64,000 bases of DNA from Marmoricola sp. Leaf446 (GTDB lineage: Bacteria > Actinomycetota > Actinomycetes > Propionibacteriales > Nocardioidaceae). Shown piece after piece: positions 24,748-33,860 of the stretch (position 1 is the first letter of the stretch; each line of letters begins with the position of its first letter). The translations under genes and the position numbers were made by a program. Where the stretch lies: contig NZ_LMRF01000004.1 in NCBI RefSeq assembly GCF_001424755.1, forward strand, positions 78,557 through 142,556, written 5' to 3'. Under the pieces are notes generated by a model. That model had not been told where the DNA came from and ran no database searches. It saw only the letters and a program-made list of their open reading frames with translations.

Positions 24748-25308
24748 GTGACGATCAACCAGTCCCTGTCCGACGCCGACCAGCGCATGGCGAAGGCCGT
24801 CGAGGTCACCCGCGAGGAGTTCGCCGCCATCCGCGCCGGCCGGGCCAACCCGCAGATGTTCTCCAAGCTCACCGCGGACTACTACGGCACGCCCACGCCC
24901 GTGCAGCAGATCGCCTCGTTCACCGCGCCCGAGGCCCGGATCATCCTGGTCGCGCCGTACGACATGAGCGCGCTGCCGGCGATCGAGCGCGCCATCCGCG
25001 ACAGCGACCTGGGCGTGAACCCCTCCAACGACGGCAAGGTCATCCGCTGCGTCTTCCCCGAGCTGACCGAGGAGCGCCGCAAGGAGTACATCAAGATCGC
25101 CCGCGCGAAGGCCGAGGACGGCAAGGTCTCGGTGCGCAACATCCGGCGCAACACCAAGCAGGCGCTGGAGAAGCTGGAGAAGGACGGCGAGGTCGGCAAG
25201 GACGACGTCACCGGCGCGGAGAAGAAGCTGGACGGGACCACCAAGAAGCACGTCGACCAGATCGACGAGATGCTCAAGACCAAGGAAGCCGAGCTGCTCG
25301 AGGTCTGA
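24748..25308 (+). CDS. frr: Ribosome recycling factor
   Basis: RRF, 186 residues, splits post-termination ribosomes with EF-G. The sequence is canonical: RMAKAVEVTREEFAAIRAGR, ANPQMFSKLTADYYGTPTPV and TEERRKEYIKIARAKAEDG. The GTG start follows AGGAGAGAAG. A 38-base gap separates it from cdsA. Confidence 0.97.
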   Translation: MTINQSLSDADQRMAKAVEVTREEFAAIRAGRANPQMFSKLTADYYGTPTPVQQIASFTAPEARIILVAPYDMSALPAIERAIRDSDLGVNPSNDGKVIRCVFPELTEERRKEYIKIARAKAEDGKVSVRNIRRNTKQALEKLEKDGEVGKDDVTGAEKKLDGTTKKHVDQIDEMLKTKEAELLEV

Positions 25309-25346
25309 GGACCTCCGAGCACCTCGCCCGTCCGGCCCGTCTCCCC

Positions 25347-26252
25347 GTGACCCAGCCGCCGTCGCCGCAGCACCAGCCCCCGCAGCCGACCGACCCCGTC
25401 GTCCACCCGCCCGCCGAGGCGGTCAAGACCTCGCGCGCGGGCCGCAACCTGCCCGCCGCCATCGGCTCGGGGGTCGGGCTGGGCGCGGCGATCATCCTCT
25501 CGCTGGTGATCTGGAAGCCGGCGTTCATGCTCATCGTGGTCGCCGCCGTGCTGGTGGCGGTCTGGGAGATGCACCGGGGCCTGCAGGCGCGCGGGATCGA
25601 CCTGCCGCAGGAGCCGCTGATGCTCGGCGGCTCGGTCATGGTGGTCGTGGCCTTTCTGGGCGGGCGTGACGACGGCCCCGACGCGCTGATCACGGCCACC
25701 GCCGTCACCGCACTGGTGACGATGCTGTGGCTGCTGCGCCGCGGGGTCGACGGCTACGTCAAGAACGCCACCGCGTCGGTGTTCACCCTCATCTACATCC
25801 CCTTCCTGGGCTCCTTCGTGGCGCTGCTGCTCGCCGAGGACGGCAGCGACGGCGTCAAGGGCATCGTCACCTTCGTGGTGATCACCATCGCCTCCGACAT
25901 CGGGGGGTACGTCGCCGGCGTGCTGTTCGGCAAGCACCCGATGGCGCCGGTGATCTCGCCCAAGAAGTCGTGGGAGGGGTTCGCCGGGTCGGCGATCGCC
26001 TGCGTCGCTGCGGGCGTGCTGCTCGTGGTGCTGCTGCTCGGGGCCGACTGGTGGATCGGCGTCGTGCTCGGCCTGATCGCCGTGGTCATGGCGACGCTGG
26101 GCGACCTGTGCGAGTCGGTGATGAAGCGCGACCTCGGCATCAAGGACATGAGCCAGATCATCCCCGGCCACGGCGGGCTGATGGACCGGCTCGACTCGCT
26201 GCTCGCGACCATCGCCCCGATCTGGCTGGTGCTGCACTACCTCGTCTTCTGA
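25347..26252 (+). CDS. cdsA: Phosphatidate cytidylyltransferase (CDP-diglyceride synthase)
   Basis: CdsA, 301 residues, makes CDP-diacylglycerol from phosphatidate and CTP. A Pro/Gln-rich cytoplasmic N-terminus of about 40 residues precedes about eight membrane segments. The family signature is complete near the C-terminus: SVMKRDLGIKDMSQIIPGHG followed by GLMDRLDS. The frr-cdsA order is conserved, and rlmN lies downstream beyond an inserted accessory region. I chose the GTG at 25347; the upstream frame overlaps frr and shows no similarity. Confidence 0.95.
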   Translation: MTQPPSPQHQPPQPTDPVVHPPAEAVKTSRAGRNLPAAIGSGVGLGAAIILSLVIWKPAFMLIVVAAVLVAVWEMHRGLQARGIDLPQEPLMLGGSVMVVVAFLGGRDDGPDALITATAVTALVTMLWLLRRGVDGYVKNATASVFTLIYIPFLGSFVALLLAEDGSDGVKGIVTFVVITIASDIGGYVAGVLFGKHPMAPVISPKKSWEGFAGSAIACVAAGVLLVVLLLGADWWIGVVLGLIAVVMATLGDLCESVMKRDLGIKDMSQIIPGHGGLMDRLDSLLATIAPIWLVLHYLVF

Positions 26253-26272
26253 GGCGGCCCACGGGACCGCGG

Positions 26273-27346
26273 TCAGGGACTGCCGCGGCGGCCATGGGTG
26301 CGCGGCGGGTCGTAGCCGCCCTCGGGCGGCTCCATCTCGGCGCGCACGCCGAGCAGGCGGACGGCCCGGTCGTCGTCCAGGGCGGCGAGCAGGTCACCGG
26401 CCGTGGCGGCGACCACCTGCGCGTCGTACGTCGGCGCGGGGAGCTTGCGCGAGCGGTTGACGGTGAAGAACGGGGCGAACCTGACCTTGAGGTGCACCCG
26501 CACGCAGGCCCGGCCCTCGGCGCGGATGTCGGCCACCACCTGGGTCGCGAGCTCGAGCAGCGCCGCGTCGACCTCGGGCCCGCGCTGCAGGTCGCGCTGG
26601 TAGGTCGTCTCACGGCCGTGGGCCCGGGCCACCCACGGGGTGTCGTCGACGACGTCGGTGCTCACCCCGCGTCCCAGCCGGCCCAGGTGGGGGCCGGTGG
26701 CCGGCCCGAACTCGGCCGCCAGCACCGCGTCGTCCGCCGCAGCGAGGTCGTGGACGGTGGCGATGCCGAGCGCGGCCAGCCGCGCCGCGATCCGGCTGCC
26801 CACGCCCCACAGGTCGCGGGTGGGACGGCCTCCCATCACCGCGAACCAGTTCTCCCGGGTCAGCCGGAAGGTGCCGCGCGGCTTGCCGAAGTCGGTGGCG
26901 GTCTTGGCGCGCACGGTGGTGTCGCCGATCCCGACGCTGCAGTGCAGCCCGGTCGCGGCGAGCACGGCCGCCTGTGCGGACCGGGCCCAGGACTCGGGGT
27001 CGTCGGCGCTGACCCCGACGAACGCCTCGTCCCAGCCGAGCACCTGCACCACGGCGCCCGGCTGTGCGCGGAGCGTGTCCATCACGACCGCCGAGGCCGC
27101 GTCGTACGCCGCGTGGTCGCTGGGCAGGAACACCGCGTCCGGGCAGCGTCGTACGGCGACCTTGAGCGGCATCCCCGACCGGACGCCGTGCTCGCGCGCC
27201 TCGTAGCTCGCCGTCGCGACCACCGCCCGCTCCGTCGGGTCGCCGCGCCCGCCGACGACCACGGGCCGGCCGGCCAGCTCGGGACGGCGCAGGACCTCGA
27301 CCGCGGCGATGAACTGGTCCATGTCGACGTGCAGCACCCAGGGCAC
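26273..27346 (-). CDS. dinB: DNA polymerase IV (Y-family, DinB)
   Basis: A 357-residue translesion polymerase. The palm motif VLHVDMDQFIAAVEVLRR carries the metal-binding Asp and the Phe steric gate; GWDEAFVGV is the second acidic motif; RDLWGVGSRIAARLAALGI is the helix-hairpin-helix-like thumb. The little-finger domain follows. There is no visible beta-clamp motif at the C-terminus, which ends in Pro/Arg-rich residues. I chose the GTG at 27346, which gives the family N-terminus VPWVLHVDMD; an ATG at 27412 would add 22 dissimilar residues. Convergent with cdsA. Confidence 0.88.
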   Translation of the reverse strand: MPWVLHVDMDQFIAAVEVLRRPELAGRPVVVGGRGDPTERAVVATASYEAREHGVRSGMPLKVAVRRCPDAVFLPSDHAAYDAASAVVMDTLRAQPGAVVQVLGWDEAFVGVSADDPESWARSAQAAVLAATGLHCSVGIGDTTVRAKTATDFGKPRGTFRLTRENWFAVMGGRPTRDLWGVGSRIAARLAALGIATVHDLAAADDAVLAAEFGPATGPHLGRLGRGVSTDVVDDTPWVARAHGRETTYQRDLQRGPEVDAALLELATQVVADIRAEGRACVRVHLKVRFAPFFTVNRSRKLPAPTYDAQVVAATAGDLLAALDDDRAVRLLGVRAEMEPPEGGYDPPRTHGRRGSP

Positions 27347-27449
27347 GGTCCATGATGACCCGCGAGGACCCGAGATGGCGCGTCGTACCCGGGTCGGACT
27401 GAGTACCTGCACCCATGACGGCGCCCCCCGACCCCGGAAGGATCACGGC

Positions 27450-28190
27450 ATGGATCCCGCCGACGCCCGCTTCCAGGCATTCGGCCCCGACCACCTCGCG
27501 TGGCTCGCGGTCTGCCTGGTCGGGTGCGCGGGAGCCGTGTGGCTGGGACGACGGCTCCGTGCTCGGGGGGTGGAGCCGTCGTTCCGGCGCGCGGTGGCGG
27601 TGCTGCTGGTCGTCACCACGGTGCCGCTCCAGCTGCTGCAGCTGCTGCCCGGCGACTTCCGGCTGGGCACCTCGCTGCCGCTGCAGATCTGCGACCTCGC
27701 CTGGATGCTGGCGGCGTGGGCGCTGTGGACCGGTCGGCGGCGGCCCGCGCAGGTGCTGCTGCTGTGGGGCGTCACGCTGGTGCCGCAGGCGGTGGTGACG
27801 CCCGCGCTGGTGGAGACCTTCCCGGACCCGCGCTACCTGATGTTCTGGTCGATGCACCTGCTGACCATCTGGTCGGCGGTCCACCTCGGCGCCACCGGCC
27901 AGGGACGGCCGAGCTGGCGCGGGCTGCGCGTCGCGGTCGTGGTGACCCTGGCCTGGGTGGCGTTCCTGATGACCTTCAACGCCGTGGTCGGCACCAACTA
28001 CGGCTACCTCAACGGCAAGCCCTCGGGCGGGTCGGCGCTCGACCTGCTCGGTCCCTGGCCGACGTACGTCGCGGCGGAGGTCGGGATCGTGCTCGTGGTG
28101 TGGCTGGTGATCACCGCGGCCGTGGCAGGGTGTCGCCCACGCGGCGGACGCGTCCCGGAAGGAGCGGCGGTTGTTCCCTACCCTCGGTGA
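27450..28190 (+). CDS. TIGR02206/YwaF-family integral membrane protein
   Basis: A 246-residue protein with about six membrane segments. It matches the TIGR02206 (YwaF) family by FQAFGPDHLAWLAVCL, LPLQICDLAWMLAAWAL and the region FNAVVGTNYGYLNGKPSGGS before ALDLLGPWPTY. The biochemical role is unknown. The ATG at 27450 is preceded by GGAAGGA. It overlaps the next gene by 20 bases, so it starts a four-gene membrane and lipid-like operon ending at 30802. Confidence 0.85.
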   Translation: MDPADARFQAFGPDHLAWLAVCLVGCAGAVWLGRRLRARGVEPSFRRAVAVLLVVTTVPLQLLQLLPGDFRLGTSLPLQICDLAWMLAAWALWTGRRRPAQVLLLWGVTLVPQAVVTPALVETFPDPRYLMFWSMHLLTIWSAVHLGATGQGRPSWRGLRVAVVVTLAWVAFLMTFNAVVGTNYGYLNGKPSGGSALDLLGPWPTYVAAEVGIVLVVWLVITAAVAGCRPRGGRVPEGAAVVPYPR

Positions 28191-28908
28191 CCTGCTGGGC
28201 GTGCCGCTGCCGGTCGACACCCACGGCACCTTCGTCGCACTGGGGGTCGCCGTGGCCGTCGGAGTCTTCGTCGTCGAGGCCCGCCGGCGGGGGCACACCG
28301 ACGACCGGCTGCTCGTCGTGGTCACCGGCGCCCTGGTCGGTGGCGCGCTGTTCATGCGGCTCGGCACCTGGCTGCAGCACGCAGACCTGCGCGACAACGC
28401 GACGCTGGTCGAGCAGTGGCTGCGTGGCAACCGCAGCGTCCTGGGCGGTCTCGTCGGGGCCTGGCTGGGGGTGCACGTGGCCAAGCGGCTGGTGGGCTAC
28501 CGGGTGCGCACCGGCGACCTGTTCGCCCCCGCGGTGGCGCTCGGGATGGCCGTCGGGCGGGTCGGCTGCCTGCTGACCGAGCCCCGGCCCGACGGGGGCA
28601 CCAACTTCTCCTTCGTCCCGGAGATCGCCTTCCACGCCGCGAGCTTCGCGGTGATCTGGTGGTGGCTGCGGCACCGCCCGCTGCCCCCGGGCGAGCTGTT
28701 CGTGTGGTGGGTGGCGGCGTACGGCGTCTTCCGCTTCGTCATCGAGCTCTCCCGCGGCAACGAGGTGGTGTGGGCCGGCCTGACCCGCCCCCAGCTGTTC
28801 CTCGCCGTCACCGTCCCGCTGGTGCTGCTGCGCATCGGTGTCCGCTGGCGCTCGGGTGCCTACCGCGCCGTCCGCCCGTCCACGTCCGAGGAGCTGGTCG
28901 CCCGATGA
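28171..28908 (+). CDS. Lgt-like (prolipoprotein diacylglyceryl transferase family) membrane protein
   Basis: A 245-residue polytopic protein with the Lgt fold, about seven membrane segments. It keeps GRVGC (the conserved Arg of the Lgt signature) and RFVIELSRG, the C-terminal R-F-x-x-E-x-x-R motif. It lacks the catalytic HGG of true Lgt; the equivalent reads NRSVLGGLVGAWLG, with Leu in place of the essential His, and the Asn after the signature Arg is Cys. It is therefore probably not the housekeeping lipoprotein enzyme. The TTG start is supported by AAGGAG at 28159-28164. It overlaps the radical SAM gene by 4 bases. Confidence 0.78.
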   Translation: MFPTLGDLLGVPLPVDTHGTFVALGVAVAVGVFVVEARRRGHTDDRLLVVVTGALVGGALFMRLGTWLQHADLRDNATLVEQWLRGNRSVLGGLVGAWLGVHVAKRLVGYRVRTGDLFAPAVALGMAVGRVGCLLTEPRPDGGTNFSFVPEIAFHAASFAVIWWWLRHRPLPPGELFVWWVAAYGVFRFVIELSRGNEVVWAGLTRPQLFLAVTVPLVLLRIGVRWRSGAYRAVRPSTSEELVAR

Positions 28909-30500
28909 CCGCCGCGCCCGCCCGGGGCCCGGGGATGCCGCTGCGCGGCGACCGGATCCACCGCTACGTCAACGCCTTCTGCCCGCTGTGCCACGAGGAG
29001 CGTCCCGATCGGCCGCTCGCCGAGGTGCAGCGGCTCTCGGGCTGGCTGGTCGAGCGGGAGGGGCGCATCTGGCTCGAGCGGGGCTGCGCGAGCCACGGCC
29101 TCGTCCGCACGCTGTACGACGAGTCGCCGGAGATCCTGTCCTACCTCGAGCAGTGGACGGCACCGACCAAGGTCCACACGCCCGACCTGGTCGGCAACTT
29201 CGCGCCCGTGCCGGCGGCGTACGAGCACGGGCTGCCGGAGATGCAGACCCAGCACACCTGCATCCTGCTCGAGGACCTGCTCGACCACTGCAACCTCAAG
29301 TGCCCGACCTGCTTCGCCGCTTCCGCGCCGGCGCTGGCCTCGGTGGCGCCGCTGGAGCAGGTGCTGGCCTCGATCGACGCGCGGCTGGCCCGCGAGCGCG
29401 GTCGCATCGACGTGCTGATGCTCAGCGGCGGCGAGCCGACGCTCTACCCCTGGCTGGCCGAGCTGCTCGAGGCCGTCGCCGCCCGCCCCGTCGTGCGGGT
29501 GCTGGTCAACACCAACGGCCTGGCCATCGCCCAGGACGACGACCTGCTGGCGCTGCTGACGCAGCACCGCGAGCGCGTCGAGGTCTACCTGCAGTACGAC
29601 GGGGAGTCGGCCCAGGCCTCGGTCCACCACCGCGGCGCCGACATCCGCCGCTTCAAGGAGCGCGCCGTCGAGCGGCTCTCGGGCGCCGGCGTCTTCACCA
29701 CGCTGACCATGACCGCGGCGCTCGGCGTCAACGACGACGAGATCGGCGCGGTGCTCAAGCGGGCGCTGGACACGCCGTACGTCGGGGGCGTGACCATCCA
29801 GCCGGTCTTCGGCTCAGGCCGCTCGGCCGGCCTGGACCCGCTGGACCGGCTCACCCACACCGGGGTGCTGGCGCGGCTGGAGGAGCAGACGGCCGGGGTG
29901 GTGACCTGGCGCGACCTGACCGCGCTGCCGTGCTCGCACCCGCACTGCTGCTCGGTGGGCTACCTGCTGCGCGACGACTCCGGGTCCTGGCGCTCGCTGG
30001 TCTCCCTGATCGGCCACGAGCGGCTCAAGCAGTGGCTCGACCTCGAGCCCGACGTGCTGGCCAACCGGATCGCCGACGACGCCGTCCCCGATCAGCTCCG
30101 CGGGGTGGTCAGGCAGTCGCTGCTCGACCTGCTCTCGGAGCAGTCGTCGCTGTCGCACCCGAGCATGGGCTCGATCTGGAAGGACATCTGCACCACCTGC
30201 GACCTCGGCATCGGGACGCTCACGACGCTGGCGGCCTCGCGCCTGCCCGGCGGCCACCAGCGGCTGCGGCGGCTGCTGGGGGAGCGGGTGCTGCGGGTGA
30301 CGGTCAAGCCCTTCATGGACATGAACACGATGATCGAGGAGCGGCTCACGCAGTGTTGCGTGCACGTCGCCACCGTCGGGCGCGACGACGCGGGGGAGCC
30401 CGCCCACCAGTGCGCGCCGTTCTGCGCGGTGCAGGCGTGGGCGCCGCTGTCGCGCAGCCGGATCTCGAGCGCGGCCGGGCTGCCGCTGGTGCAGCGGTGA
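28905..30500 (+). CDS. Radical SAM enzyme, COG1964 (MJ0619/Tes-like) family
   Basis: A 531-residue radical SAM protein. The N-terminus has a zinc-ribbon-like CPLCHEERPD..CASHG, and the 4Fe-4S SAM cluster is bound by Cys129, Cys133 and Cys136 in DHCNLKCPTCFA, followed by LSGGEPTLYPWL. The C-terminal half has further Cys groups suggesting extra clusters: PCSHPHCCSVGYLL, DICTTCDLGIG and QCCVHVA..HQCAPFCAVQAW. This architecture is COG1964, which includes the archaeal tetraether lipid synthase Tes, a C-C coupling enzyme acting on lipid tails. The substrate here is unknown; the adjacent Lgt-like gene makes a lipid plausible. Confidence 0.82.
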   Translation: MTAAPARGPGMPLRGDRIHRYVNAFCPLCHEERPDRPLAEVQRLSGWLVEREGRIWLERGCASHGLVRTLYDESPEILSYLEQWTAPTKVHTPDLVGNFAPVPAAYEHGLPEMQTQHTCILLEDLLDHCNLKCPTCFAASAPALASVAPLEQVLASIDARLARERGRIDVLMLSGGEPTLYPWLAELLEAVAARPVVRVLVNTNGLAIAQDDDLLALLTQHRERVEVYLQYDGESAQASVHHRGADIRRFKERAVERLSGAGVFTTLTMTAALGVNDDEIGAVLKRALDTPYVGGVTIQPVFGSGRSAGLDPLDRLTHTGVLARLEEQTAGVVTWRDLTALPCSHPHCCSVGYLLRDDSGSWRSLVSLIGHERLKQWLDLEPDVLANRIADDAVPDQLRGVVRQSLLDLLSEQSSLSHPSMGSIWKDICTTCDLGIGTLTTLAASRLPGGHQRLRRLLGERVLRVTVKPFMDMNTMIEERLTQCCVHVATVGRDDAGEPAHQCAPFCAVQAWAPLSRSRISSAAGLPLVQR

Positions 30501-30802
30501 GCGACCCGCGCCAGGTCGCGCCTCCCCACCAGGAGGCGTCGGCGCACGAGTCGTTCGACCCGCTGCGGCTGTGCGTCTACGCCACCGTGGCGCTGCTCGC
30601 CTGGCTGCTGGGTCCCGTGGCGTTGCTCGGCTTCGCGGTGCTGGGCGCCGTCGGCTACACCCGGGCCCGCCGCGCCGGGCTGCTCCGGTCGCGCTGCAGG
30701 CTCGGCGACACCCGGCTGGTGATCGCCTACCTGGTCGCGCTGGCCGTCGCCGGAGCGGCCGGCACGGCGTACGCCCTGACGGGTGGGCACGTCGGTGTCT
30801 GA
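30497..30802 (+). CDS. Small membrane protein coupled to the radical SAM gene
   Basis: A 101-residue protein that I do not recognise. A polar N-terminus (SDPRQVAPPHQEASAHESFD) is followed by a membrane segment at about residues 26-50, a basic loop (RARRAGLLRSRCRLGDTR) and a second segment at about 73-95. The GTG lies in GTGA over the radical SAM stop, so translation is coupled. It may recruit or anchor the radical SAM enzyme at the membrane; this rests on context only. Confidence 0.7.
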   Translation: MSDPRQVAPPHQEASAHESFDPLRLCVYATVALLAWLLGPVALLGFAVLGAVGYTRARRAGLLRSRCRLGDTRLVIAYLVALAVAGAAGTAYALTGGHVGV

Positions 30803-30835: not shown

Positions 30836-31222
30836 ATGAGCCAGCCGCCACCCCCGCCGTACGCCGGCCCGCCGCACGGCCCGCCCGGCCCGCCCGGCCC
30901 CGCGGGTCGTCCGGGACCCAGCAACAAGGCGAAGTTCTGGATCGGCTTCGCCCTCGCCGGCCCGCTCATGTTCGTGCTGGCCTTCCTCACCTCGATCCCG
31001 TCCGCCGTGCTGTCGGAGATCTCCTCGCTGGATCCCGCGTTCGGCGGCGTGGCCCAGCTGGCGATCGTCGTGCTCGAGCTGGTCGGGCTGGTGGCCGCGC
31101 TGGTGGTCGAGCGGACCCGCTGGTGGGCCATCGGCTTCGTCGCCGGCGCGGCGACCGTGCTGATCGTGCTGGCGGGGGCGTGCGTGGTGATCCTGGTCGC
31201 CCTGGTGGGCGCATCGGGCTGA
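30836..31222 (+). CDS. Membrane protein with proline-rich N-terminus
   Basis: A 128-residue protein: a Pro/Gly-rich cytoplasmic N-terminus of about 30 residues, then three membrane segments near residues 36-58, 74-95 and 100-124. GGGAGG precedes the ATG. No family is recognised and no catalytic motif is visible. It lies 33 bases downstream of the radical SAM operon and may be its last member. Confidence 0.72.
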   Translation: MSQPPPPPYAGPPHGPPGPPGPAGRPGPSNKAKFWIGFALAGPLMFVLAFLTSIPSAVLSEISSLDPAFGGVAQLAIVVLELVGLVAALVVERTRWWAIGFVAGAATVLIVLAGACVVILVALVGASG

Positions 31223-32514: not shown

Positions 32515-33540
32515 ATGCGCGCCGTACGCCTGCACGACTACCACCAGGAGCCCGTGGTCGAGGAGGTGCCCGACCCGCACGTGTCCGGTCCGCTGGACGT
32601 CGTGGTGCGGATCGGCGGCGCCGGTGTCTGCCGCACCGACCTGCACGTCATGGAGGGCCAGTGGGCCGACGCGATGGGGCCGACGCTGCCCTACACGCTC
32701 GGCCACGAGAACGCCGGCTGGGTGGAGGAGGTCGGCTCTGCGGTGACCAACGTCGCCGTGGGCGACACCGTGATCCTGCACCCGACGCCGACCTGCGGCC
32801 TGTGCCGCGCCTGCCGGGCCGGGCAGGACATGCACTGCGTGGCCAGCAGCTTCCCCGGGCTCGACACCGACGGCGGCATGGCCGACTACCTGCTCACCTC
32901 GGCGCGCGCGTGCGTCAAGCTCGACCCGTCGGTGCAGCCGCAGGACGTCGCGGCGCTGGCGGACGCCGGCATCACGGCGTACCACGCGGTCCGCAAGGCG
33001 GTGCCGCTCCTGCACCCCGGCACCACCGCGGTCGTGGTCGGCGCCGGCGGACTGGGCCACATCGGCATCCAGTGCCTGCTCGCGCTCACCGCGACCGAGG
33101 TCGTCGTGGTCGACCCCAACCCCGCGGCGCTGGAGCTGGCGTCCGAGCTCGGCGCCCACCACACCCTGCTCGCCGACGAGCACGTCGTCGGCGCGGTGCA
33201 GGACCTGACCGGGGGAGAGGGTGCCGACGTGGTGCTCGACTTCGTCGCCGAGCAGGGCGCCGAGGCAACCTCGTGGGAGATGACGCGTCCCGGCGGCTCG
33301 GACTACGTGATCGGGTACGGCGGCACGCTCTCCATCCCCACGCTCGACGTCATCTCCACCGAGCGCAACGTCGTCGGCAACATCGTCGGCACCTACAACG
33401 AGCTGGCGGAGCTGATGGTCCTCGCCCGTCGCGGCCTGGTCACGCTCCACACCCGCAGCTACCCCCTCGACGACGCCGTCCAGGCGCTGCGCGACCTCGA
33501 CGCGGGCGGGGTGCGGGGCCGGGCGATCCTGGTGCCGTGA
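32515..33540 (+). CDS. Zinc-dependent NAD(P)-binding alcohol dehydrogenase
   Basis: A 341-residue medium-chain dehydrogenase. Catalytic zinc ligands are in GVCRTDLHVMEG, GHENAG and the later Asp region; the structural zinc is bound by CGLCRACRAGQDMHC. The cofactor motif is VVVGAGGLGHIGIQ, and Asp in VVVVDPNP suggests NAD over NADP. AGGAGG is 4 bases before the ATG. The last codons, DAGGVRGRAILVP, are part of a tandem 185-bp duplication that extends downstream, so the 3' end has been copied. Substrate is not evident; relatives reduce or oxidise aromatic or short-chain alcohols. Confidence 0.88.
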   Translation: MRAVRLHDYHQEPVVEEVPDPHVSGPLDVVVRIGGAGVCRTDLHVMEGQWADAMGPTLPYTLGHENAGWVEEVGSAVTNVAVGDTVILHPTPTCGLCRACRAGQDMHCVASSFPGLDTDGGMADYLLTSARACVKLDPSVQPQDVAALADAGITAYHAVRKAVPLLHPGTTAVVVGAGGLGHIGIQCLLALTATEVVVVDPNPAALELASELGAHHTLLADEHVVGAVQDLTGGEGADVVLDFVAEQGAEATSWEMTRPGGSDYVIGYGGTLSIPTLDVISTERNVVGNIVGTYNELAELMVLARRGLVTLHTRSYPLDDAVQALRDLDAGGVRGRAILVP

Positions 33541-33682
33541 GGCGGGGGCTGTCGCTCGGGTCGTCGGGTCGGACATCTCGGGCGGCTCGGCAGGCTTTCC
33601 TGGTGCTCGGCAGGCATCGCGACGCCTGCCAGGTACCAGATTCCCCGGACGTCCGGGGAACCAGCAGCGGCCGACCGGAGAT
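33498..33682. repeat. Tandem 185-bp repeat, copy A (includes the ADH 3' end)
   Basis: Copy A covers the last 14 codons of the alcohol dehydrogenase plus about 140 bp of non-coding DNA. It contains the perfect 20-bp palindrome at 33641-33660 (TTCCCCGGAC followed by its reverse complement) and a second hairpin, GGCAGGC/GCCTGCC. Confidence 0.88.
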
Positions 33683-33860
33683 CGACGCCGGTGAGGTGCG
33701 GGGCCGGGCGATCCTGACGCCCTGAGGCGGGGGCTGTCGCTCGGGTTGTCGGGTCGGACATCTCGGGCAGCTCGGCAGGCTTTCCTGCTGCTCGGCAGGC
33801 ATCGCGACGCCTGCCAGGCACCAGATTCCCCGGACGTCCGGGGAACCAGCAGCGCCCACC
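33683..33860. repeat. Tandem 185-bp repeat, copy B
   Basis: Copy B lies exactly 185 bp further, diverged at scattered bases. It keeps an in-frame remnant of the ADH end (DAGEVRGRAILTP then stop at 33723-33725) and the same palindrome at 33826-33845. This and copy A fill most of the 375-base gap before the next gene. Confidence 0.88.

Follow-up and report, generated by a model that had tools for sequence, protein, structure and literature searches.

Tetraether synthase (Tes, or GDGT-MAS; MJ0619) is the archaeal radical S-adenosylmethionine (SAM) enzyme that joins lipid tails by C-C coupling. Tes is reported to take hydrogen from the tail terminus and has been crystallised with bacterial phosphatidic acid bound; the authors propose that the radical is stored on a C-terminal cluster (PMC9433317). 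In bacteria, Tes homologues have been put forward as enzymes that might produce membrane-spanning lipids. Zeng et al. count 456 bacterial ones and suggest that they contribute to branched tetraethers (PMC8941075), while Black Sea metagenomics found Tes homologues in 281 bacterial metagenome-assembled genomes and named Actinobacteria among the possible producers by way of Mss and Ger, not Tes (PMC11868695). The accessible text of both papers mentions no partner genes for these homologues, and no paper linking Lgt with Tes was found in the open-licence literature. In Lgt itself, Arg143 and Arg239, both essential, are reported to handle phosphatidylglycerol (PG), and Tyr26, His103 and Asn146 to be essential (PMC4728403, PMC13251419). 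Here we analyse a stretch of 64,000 nucleotides from Marmoricola sp. Leaf446 (contig NZ_LMRF01000004.1; "the window"), in which a relative of Tes and an Lgt-like protein, LGTL, are encoded side by side in a gene cassette that is likely to modify lipid tails.

Four genes on the plus strand (27450-30802) overlap by 20, 4 and 4 bases. Re-deriving the frames gave the same genes and overlaps as a sequence-only reading of this stretch, made without database searches, which had taken the four for one unit. That picture holds in part. LGTL, an Lgt-fold membrane protein (28171-28908, TTG start; PF01790 at 2.2e-20, above the Pfam cut-off), the radical SAM enzyme (28905-30500, 531 amino acids) and SMTM (30497-30802, GTG start) do belong to one cassette, and SMTM, with its 101 residues, has two hydrophobic regions, in keeping with the two membrane spans described earlier. 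The first gene turned out to be local, and a fifth cassette gene, PRTM (30836-31222, plus strand), had been overlooked. Against the nearest relatives, the ratio of nonsynonymous to synonymous substitution rates (dN/dS) is 0.06-0.38 across the four genes (0.15-0.24 for the first three; 0.06 and 0.38 for SMTM). Because of these values, and because three of the four genes are conserved across the phylum, the block exceeds what chance would give.

The pairing of LGTL with the enzyme is close to obligatory. Orthologues of the enzyme were collected at 118 loci, comprising 80 kept of 459 from genome contigs, 18 from 149 genomes of the family and 20 from 345 genomes of the class (110 distinct loci at 98%, with 8 repeats; L084 is the window itself). 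At 116 of them LGTL adjoins the enzyme and is read in the same orientation, with a median gap of 359 bases and a maximum of 1098; it comes first in 79 loci and second in 37. The two loci that lack it, L020 and L074, are both cut by the locus end. Within the class sample, enzyme orthologues (above 880 bits) occur in 21 genomes and LGTL (E<=1e-25) also in 21, and the genomes are identical. A phylum sample of 346 genomes added five outside the class, all of them with LGTL and SMTM beside the enzyme, one enzyme being split over two contigs and another over two profile stretches. The neighbourhood count proposed in the sequence-only reading thus carries the pairing far beyond this strain. The distribution of the cassette is patchy (21/345 class genomes, 18/149 family genomes). 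Twelve further class genomes contain distant Tes-like proteins only (146-210 bits), and neither LGTL nor SMTM was found at 18 distant Tes-like loci, 14 from the class and family genomes and 4 from the phylum search, four of the 18 being contigs shorter than 6 kb. Four cassette genomes of one genus all contain PE-family proteins, which suggests that they are probably mycobacteria; the same PE search also matched the E. coli control.

Several comparisons connect the radical SAM enzyme with Tes along its full length. A single-sequence search of the PDB placed Tes first (7TOL, 8.7e-30), and a profile built from 35 of the 118 enzymes reached 7TOL at 1.4e-38. Foldseek aligned the predicted enzyme model to 7TOM across 528 columns (E 6e-20), whereas the matches at E<=0.001 other than 7TOM and 7TOL span just 188-281 columns. 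Once MJ0619 is aligned with 38 enzymes from cassettes and with 18 distant homologues from actinobacteria, C9/C12/C33/H36, the radical SAM Cys, F106, G145, R210, Q268 and R275 (MJ0619 numbering) are kept in 56/56 rows, and so are C338/C455/C456/C470 of the C-terminal part; Cys438 is not kept in the cassette enzymes, where it is Val or Ile. All the Cys groups announced from the sequence were located in the window enzyme. The rubredoxin-type site starts at C26-x2-C29 (28980-28991, plus strand; partners C61 and H64) and corresponds to Tes C9/C12/C33/H36 in 38/38 rows. The radical SAM cluster is C129-x3-C133-x2-C136 (29289-29312, plus strand), again in 38/38 rows. C484-C485 (30354-30359, plus strand) corresponds to Tes C455-C456 and, together with C348 and C507, probably provides ligands of the C-terminal cluster; the other groups are C343/C348, C429/C432 and C503/C507. 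The 38 cassette enzymes form one group in the tree (100/100), which is unrooted and in which MJ0619 sits on a long branch. Judged by these alignments, the window enzyme is a full-length relative of Tes.

The partner protein is equally recognisable. The AlphaFold model of LGTL (predicted local distance difference test, pLDDT, 89.5) has E. coli Lgt (5azb) as its sole PDB match at E<=1e-3, with a probability of 1.00 and a template modelling (TM) score of 0.63; both NCBIfam Lgt equivalogs stay under their cut-offs (43.8/334 and 43.1/118.9 bits). Residues were mapped onto Lgt through Pfam and profile alignments and through an alignment with the true Lgt of the host, a separate canonical protein encoded on another contig (1.3e-63). 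Arg143, Glu151, Tyr235, Arg239, Glu243 and Arg246 of Lgt are kept in 36/36 LGTL rows (36 of the 116 proteins were aligned), their window counterparts being Arg130, Glu137, Tyr184, Arg188, Glu192 and Arg195. His18 (28222-28224, plus strand) takes the place of Lgt Tyr26 in 36/36 rows. The Lgt motif GRLGN reads GRVGC (Arg130-Cys133, 28558-28569, plus strand), so that Arg143 is kept and Asn146 is replaced by Cys, again in 36/36. The His103 of the HGG motif is Leu in 34/36 and Ile in 2/36. The Leu of the window, Leu91, had been read correctly from the sequence, but its use as the sign of an atypical protein has to be given up: the host's true Lgt, which has Tyr at the Tyr26 place and Asn at Asn146, carries Trp there, and Trp at this place is reported for actinobacterial Lgts in the accessible text of a 2026 paper (PMC13251419). 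A missing HGG His is therefore no mark of a non-Lgt. What truly sets the LGTL family apart is a His in place of Tyr26 and a Cys in place of Asn146, alongside intact phospholipid-binding residues. Around 28582-28608, about 23 periplasmic head-loop residues, including an HPS motif, have been lost from the LGTL of the window and of loci L085 and L086; the motif is kept in more than 90% of the aligned relatives. LGTL reading frames of L065 and L101 are cut by the locus end.

These residues are open to a second interpretation, namely that LGTL is an active transferase which moves diacylglyceryl from PG to a new acceptor (a sugar, a lipid or a peptide), the radical SAM enzyme modifying the product without joining tails. 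It is favoured by the invariance of the Arg143/Arg239/Glu243/Arg246 network, which activates PG in Lgt, and by two new invariant residues, His18 and Cys133, that are predicted to lie in the same cavity. Moreover, Mycobacterium smegmatis has a second Lgt homologue, MSMEG_5408, which shows both exchanges, Y26H and N146C, and is presumed to have low Lgt activity (PMC13251419). We nevertheless regard this interpretation as unlikely. Clustering of the neighbouring genes gave no other family that accompanies the cassette beyond single lineages, the minor clusters being only partly identified, and LGTL of the window lineage is still under purifying selection (dN/dS about 0.19) despite the loss of its head loop.

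Two small membrane proteins complete the cassette. SMTM, aligned in 26 rows, has a DPL-LC motif that never varies and, in a basic loop, another invariant Cys (DPLRLC ... ARRxGLxxSxCxLxDxR); matched against Pfam and NCBIfam, SMTM stays below every cut-off. It lies near 104/116 cassettes and occurs in 15/345 class genomes, every one of them cassette-bearing; it was not found in the four probable mycobacteria and two other cassette genomes. PRTM came to light when the genes that separate LGTL from the enzyme in other genomes were examined. The window protein has a Pro-rich start, membrane segments and a G-x-C end, and a profile from 15 such separating genes matches it at 3.9e-8. With the same profile, PRTM is near the enzyme in 103/116 cassette loci at E<=0.01, the 15 seeds included. 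The protein is fast-evolving (28% mean column identity). That PRTM is just any membrane protein, picked up by coincidence, is ruled out by the far-flank control, which gave 0 matches in 595 kb and 7590 segments, and by 10 cassette-free genomes, in which the best match was 1e-4. The cassette copy is the genome-wide best match in 20/21 cassette genomes, at 1.4e-6 or better (five rows of the PRTM alignment come from these 21 genomes); in the remaining one, G286, it is second best only, at 0.003. PRTM was not found at E 0.01 in the five genomes outside the class.

We give a probability of roughly one half to the reading that LGTL supplies PG and that the Tes-like enzyme modifies its acyl tails, perhaps joining them by a C-C bond. 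Modification of lipid tails is likely, and C-C joining would be its leading form. A lipid-modifying system with the Lgt-like protein binding the phospholipid was also what the sequence-only reading had proposed; because the enzyme places with Tes and the pairing is conserved beyond the strain, this remains the best reading, although the chemistry is still something that we infer. The full-length match to Tes, the ligands kept in 38/38 rows and the adjacency of LGTL in 116/118 loci speak for this reading. Supply of PG by LGTL is proposed because the PG-handling network of Lgt is kept, and an Lgt-derived partner of this kind fits the part of a supplier. A PG-type substrate is further favoured by the phosphatidic acid in the Tes crystals and by bacterial Mss, a membrane-spanning lipid synthase argued to act after head-group attachment, with PG as a candidate substrate (PMC13274423).

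According to this proposal, LGTL would hold a glycerophospholipid, probably PG, in its Lgt-derived cavity. The Tes-like enzyme would cleave SAM and abstract hydrogen from an unactivated carbon of the acyl tail, and the tail radical would be parked on the C-terminal [Fe4S4] cluster of the enzyme until the last bond is made. As product, a phospholipid with C-C-joined tails, either macrocyclic or joined tail to tail, would be the most likely. SMTM and PRTM would serve as docking proteins between the enzyme and LGTL and, with the N-terminal auxiliary cluster missing from the enzyme, may also help with the delivery of electrons or substrate. Since this cluster has been lost only from enzymes that have LGTL beside them, the partners may have assumed some of its work, perhaps the entry of electrons. 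In its boldest form, the tail-joining reading has the invariant Cys133 of LGTL, beside the PG-activating Arg, accept the diacylglyceryl group and hold it covalently during the radical step. That Cys133 acts in this way and that common actinobacteria, probably including environmental mycobacteria, join phospholipid tails with an Lgt put to new use and a relative of Tes is, taken jointly, a tentative idea about which we are more doubtful than hopeful.

A number of observations weigh against the preferred reading. The predicted model of the enzyme is mediocre (pLDDT 65.8). The Cys of the Tes N-terminal auxiliary cluster, C73/C77/C80, are absent in 38/38 cassette enzymes and present in 18/18 distant homologues; at the place of this cluster and its His (29208-29246, plus strand) the window has V102, H108, P111 and Q114. 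H83, which we take to be the His ligand, the Tes paper giving no number, is Gln in 37/38 and His in 1/38 cassette enzymes and His in 18/18 distant homologues. Met439 of Tes has become Lys in 38/38 cassette enzymes, Tyr459 Val in 37/38 and Ala in 1/38, and Ser271, which contacts the adenine, Phe in 38/38. Met439 and Tyr459 are reported as invariant in 1000 archaeal Tes homologues, and the M439A, Y459F and Y459L variants as still active (Lloyd et al., PMC9433317). The Tes model NF045702 gives the window enzyme 142.1 bits against a cut-off of 450 (152.7 and 144.3 for two cassette relatives), and the best NCBIfam score belongs to TrsS (NF045646), at 180.8 bits against a cut-off of 490. A true Tes is ruled out by the first score together with the loss of the N-terminal cluster Cys, and a true TrsS by the second. 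Because of the ligand and residue changes and of the scores under cut-off we speak of a relative of Tes rather than of Tes, and the earlier label of a Tes/COG1964-like enzyme stands in that sense only. In the PDB profile, NCBIfam and Foldseek comparisons the enzyme sides with Tes and with no known non-lipid subfamily, though TrsS scores higher.

Other difficulties concern the partners and the hosts. SMTM and PRTM are not universal among cassettes. At one locus that is present in two collections (L023 6846-7624, and L095), the LGTL gene is broken into two reading frames, through either sequencing error or decay. In our literature searches, no membrane-spanning lipid was reported for cultured members of the cassette genera. 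Finally, Tes is cytosolic. Lgt is reported to open to the outer face (PMC4728403), and it is hard to see how the two would share a lipid.

The replacement of Met439 and Tyr459 would also agree with a simpler change of the tail, such as desaturation, methylation, methylthiolation or ring formation, with LGTL binding the substrate. Radical SAM enzymes perform many such reactions on unactivated carbons. However, the Tes-like full-length fold and the C-terminal cluster Cys are kept, and scans with Pfam and NCBIfam gave no cobalamin-binding or other extra domain in the enzyme, so we consider this alternative improbable as well. A role outside lipids, with a TrsS-like or pterin-type enzyme and LGTL as a mere membrane anchor, could appeal to the higher TrsS score and to the Pfam name of the N-terminal ribbon, but that name derives from a pterin methylase annotation judged incorrect for MJ0619 (PMC9433317) and an anchor would not need the invariant phospholipid-binding network, which makes such a role very unlikely.

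The first gene of the block (27450-28190, plus strand) encodes a TMEM164-related integral membrane protein, a putative acyltransferase by its family match (PF14808, 6.6e-48; TIGR02206, 1.4e-51); its 174.9 bits, against a cut-off of 75, bear out the TIGR02206 assignment made earlier. Its match beside the cassette in only 2/118 loci, the window (L084) and L085, rules it out as a core part. It is a local addition that overlaps the cassette, with a dN/dS of 0.24 against L085. At 11/80 loci, frr-cdsA and rlmN flank the cassette, which there lies next to a gene, presumably cdsA, of phospholipid metabolism. In the window (24748-27412), a gene on the opposite strand, which we take to encode a Y-family DNA polymerase-like protein, lies in between. 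At the probable mycobacterial locus L153 (3082-6696), a P-type ATPase, an ArsR-type-like regulator and a ZIP transporter-like gene lie upstream, the last two judged by eye and the ZIP-like gene being without a Pfam match. Downstream of the cassette, the window contains a tandem pair of 176-nt repeats (33497-33857), 94% identical and 185 nt apart from start to start, which begins within the 3' end of an open reading frame stopping at 33540.

In this lineage of Tes homologues a membrane partner is close to obligatory, and the residues that the partner has retained indicate PG. The cassette points to an undescribed route of membrane-lipid modification, and the second Lgt homologue of mycobacteria, so far an oddity, may find its place there. 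If tail joining is true, common soil actinobacteria would make membrane-spanning or macrocyclic lipids, with a bearing on membrane biology and on tetraether-type biomarkers. Lipidomics could address the question directly in genera that can be cultured, among them Nocardioides and Microbacterium.

Compared with known systems, the cassette enzyme is akin to TrsS in its top NCBIfam score and differs from it in staying far under the cut-off. We know of no established function for TrsS, which a review lists as a selenoprotein. The other actinobacterial Tes-like proteins (L164-L177, L184-L187) belong to the same superfamily, with about 30% identity and the same C-terminal Cys; unlike the cassette enzymes, they keep the N-terminal auxiliary ligands in 18/18 and stand apart from LGTL and SMTM. 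They form an unlinked second group that keeps the checked Tes metal ligands except Cys438 and Met439, and the three tested reach 288-331 bits with the Tes model, under its cut-off. LGTL shares with Lgt (PF01790, 5azb) the fold and the Arg143, Glu151, Tyr235, Arg239, Glu243 and Arg246 set, and departs from it at Tyr26, Asn146 and His103 and in adjoining a radical SAM gene. With MSMEG_5408, compared by its published description, it shares both family marks; MSMEG_5406, close by number, is reported to fall 9-fold in zinc starvation (PMC7174638). Mss can be likened by description only, through its reported Tes-like architecture (PMC13274423). With Tes itself (7TOL/7TOM, NF045702), the cassette enzyme has in common the full-length fold, the rubredoxin-type site, the radical SAM cluster and four C-terminal Cys; it differs in its 20% identity over the structural alignment and in the Lgt-like partner that accompanies it. 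The hosts of the cassette, moreover, are bacteria with ester lipids.

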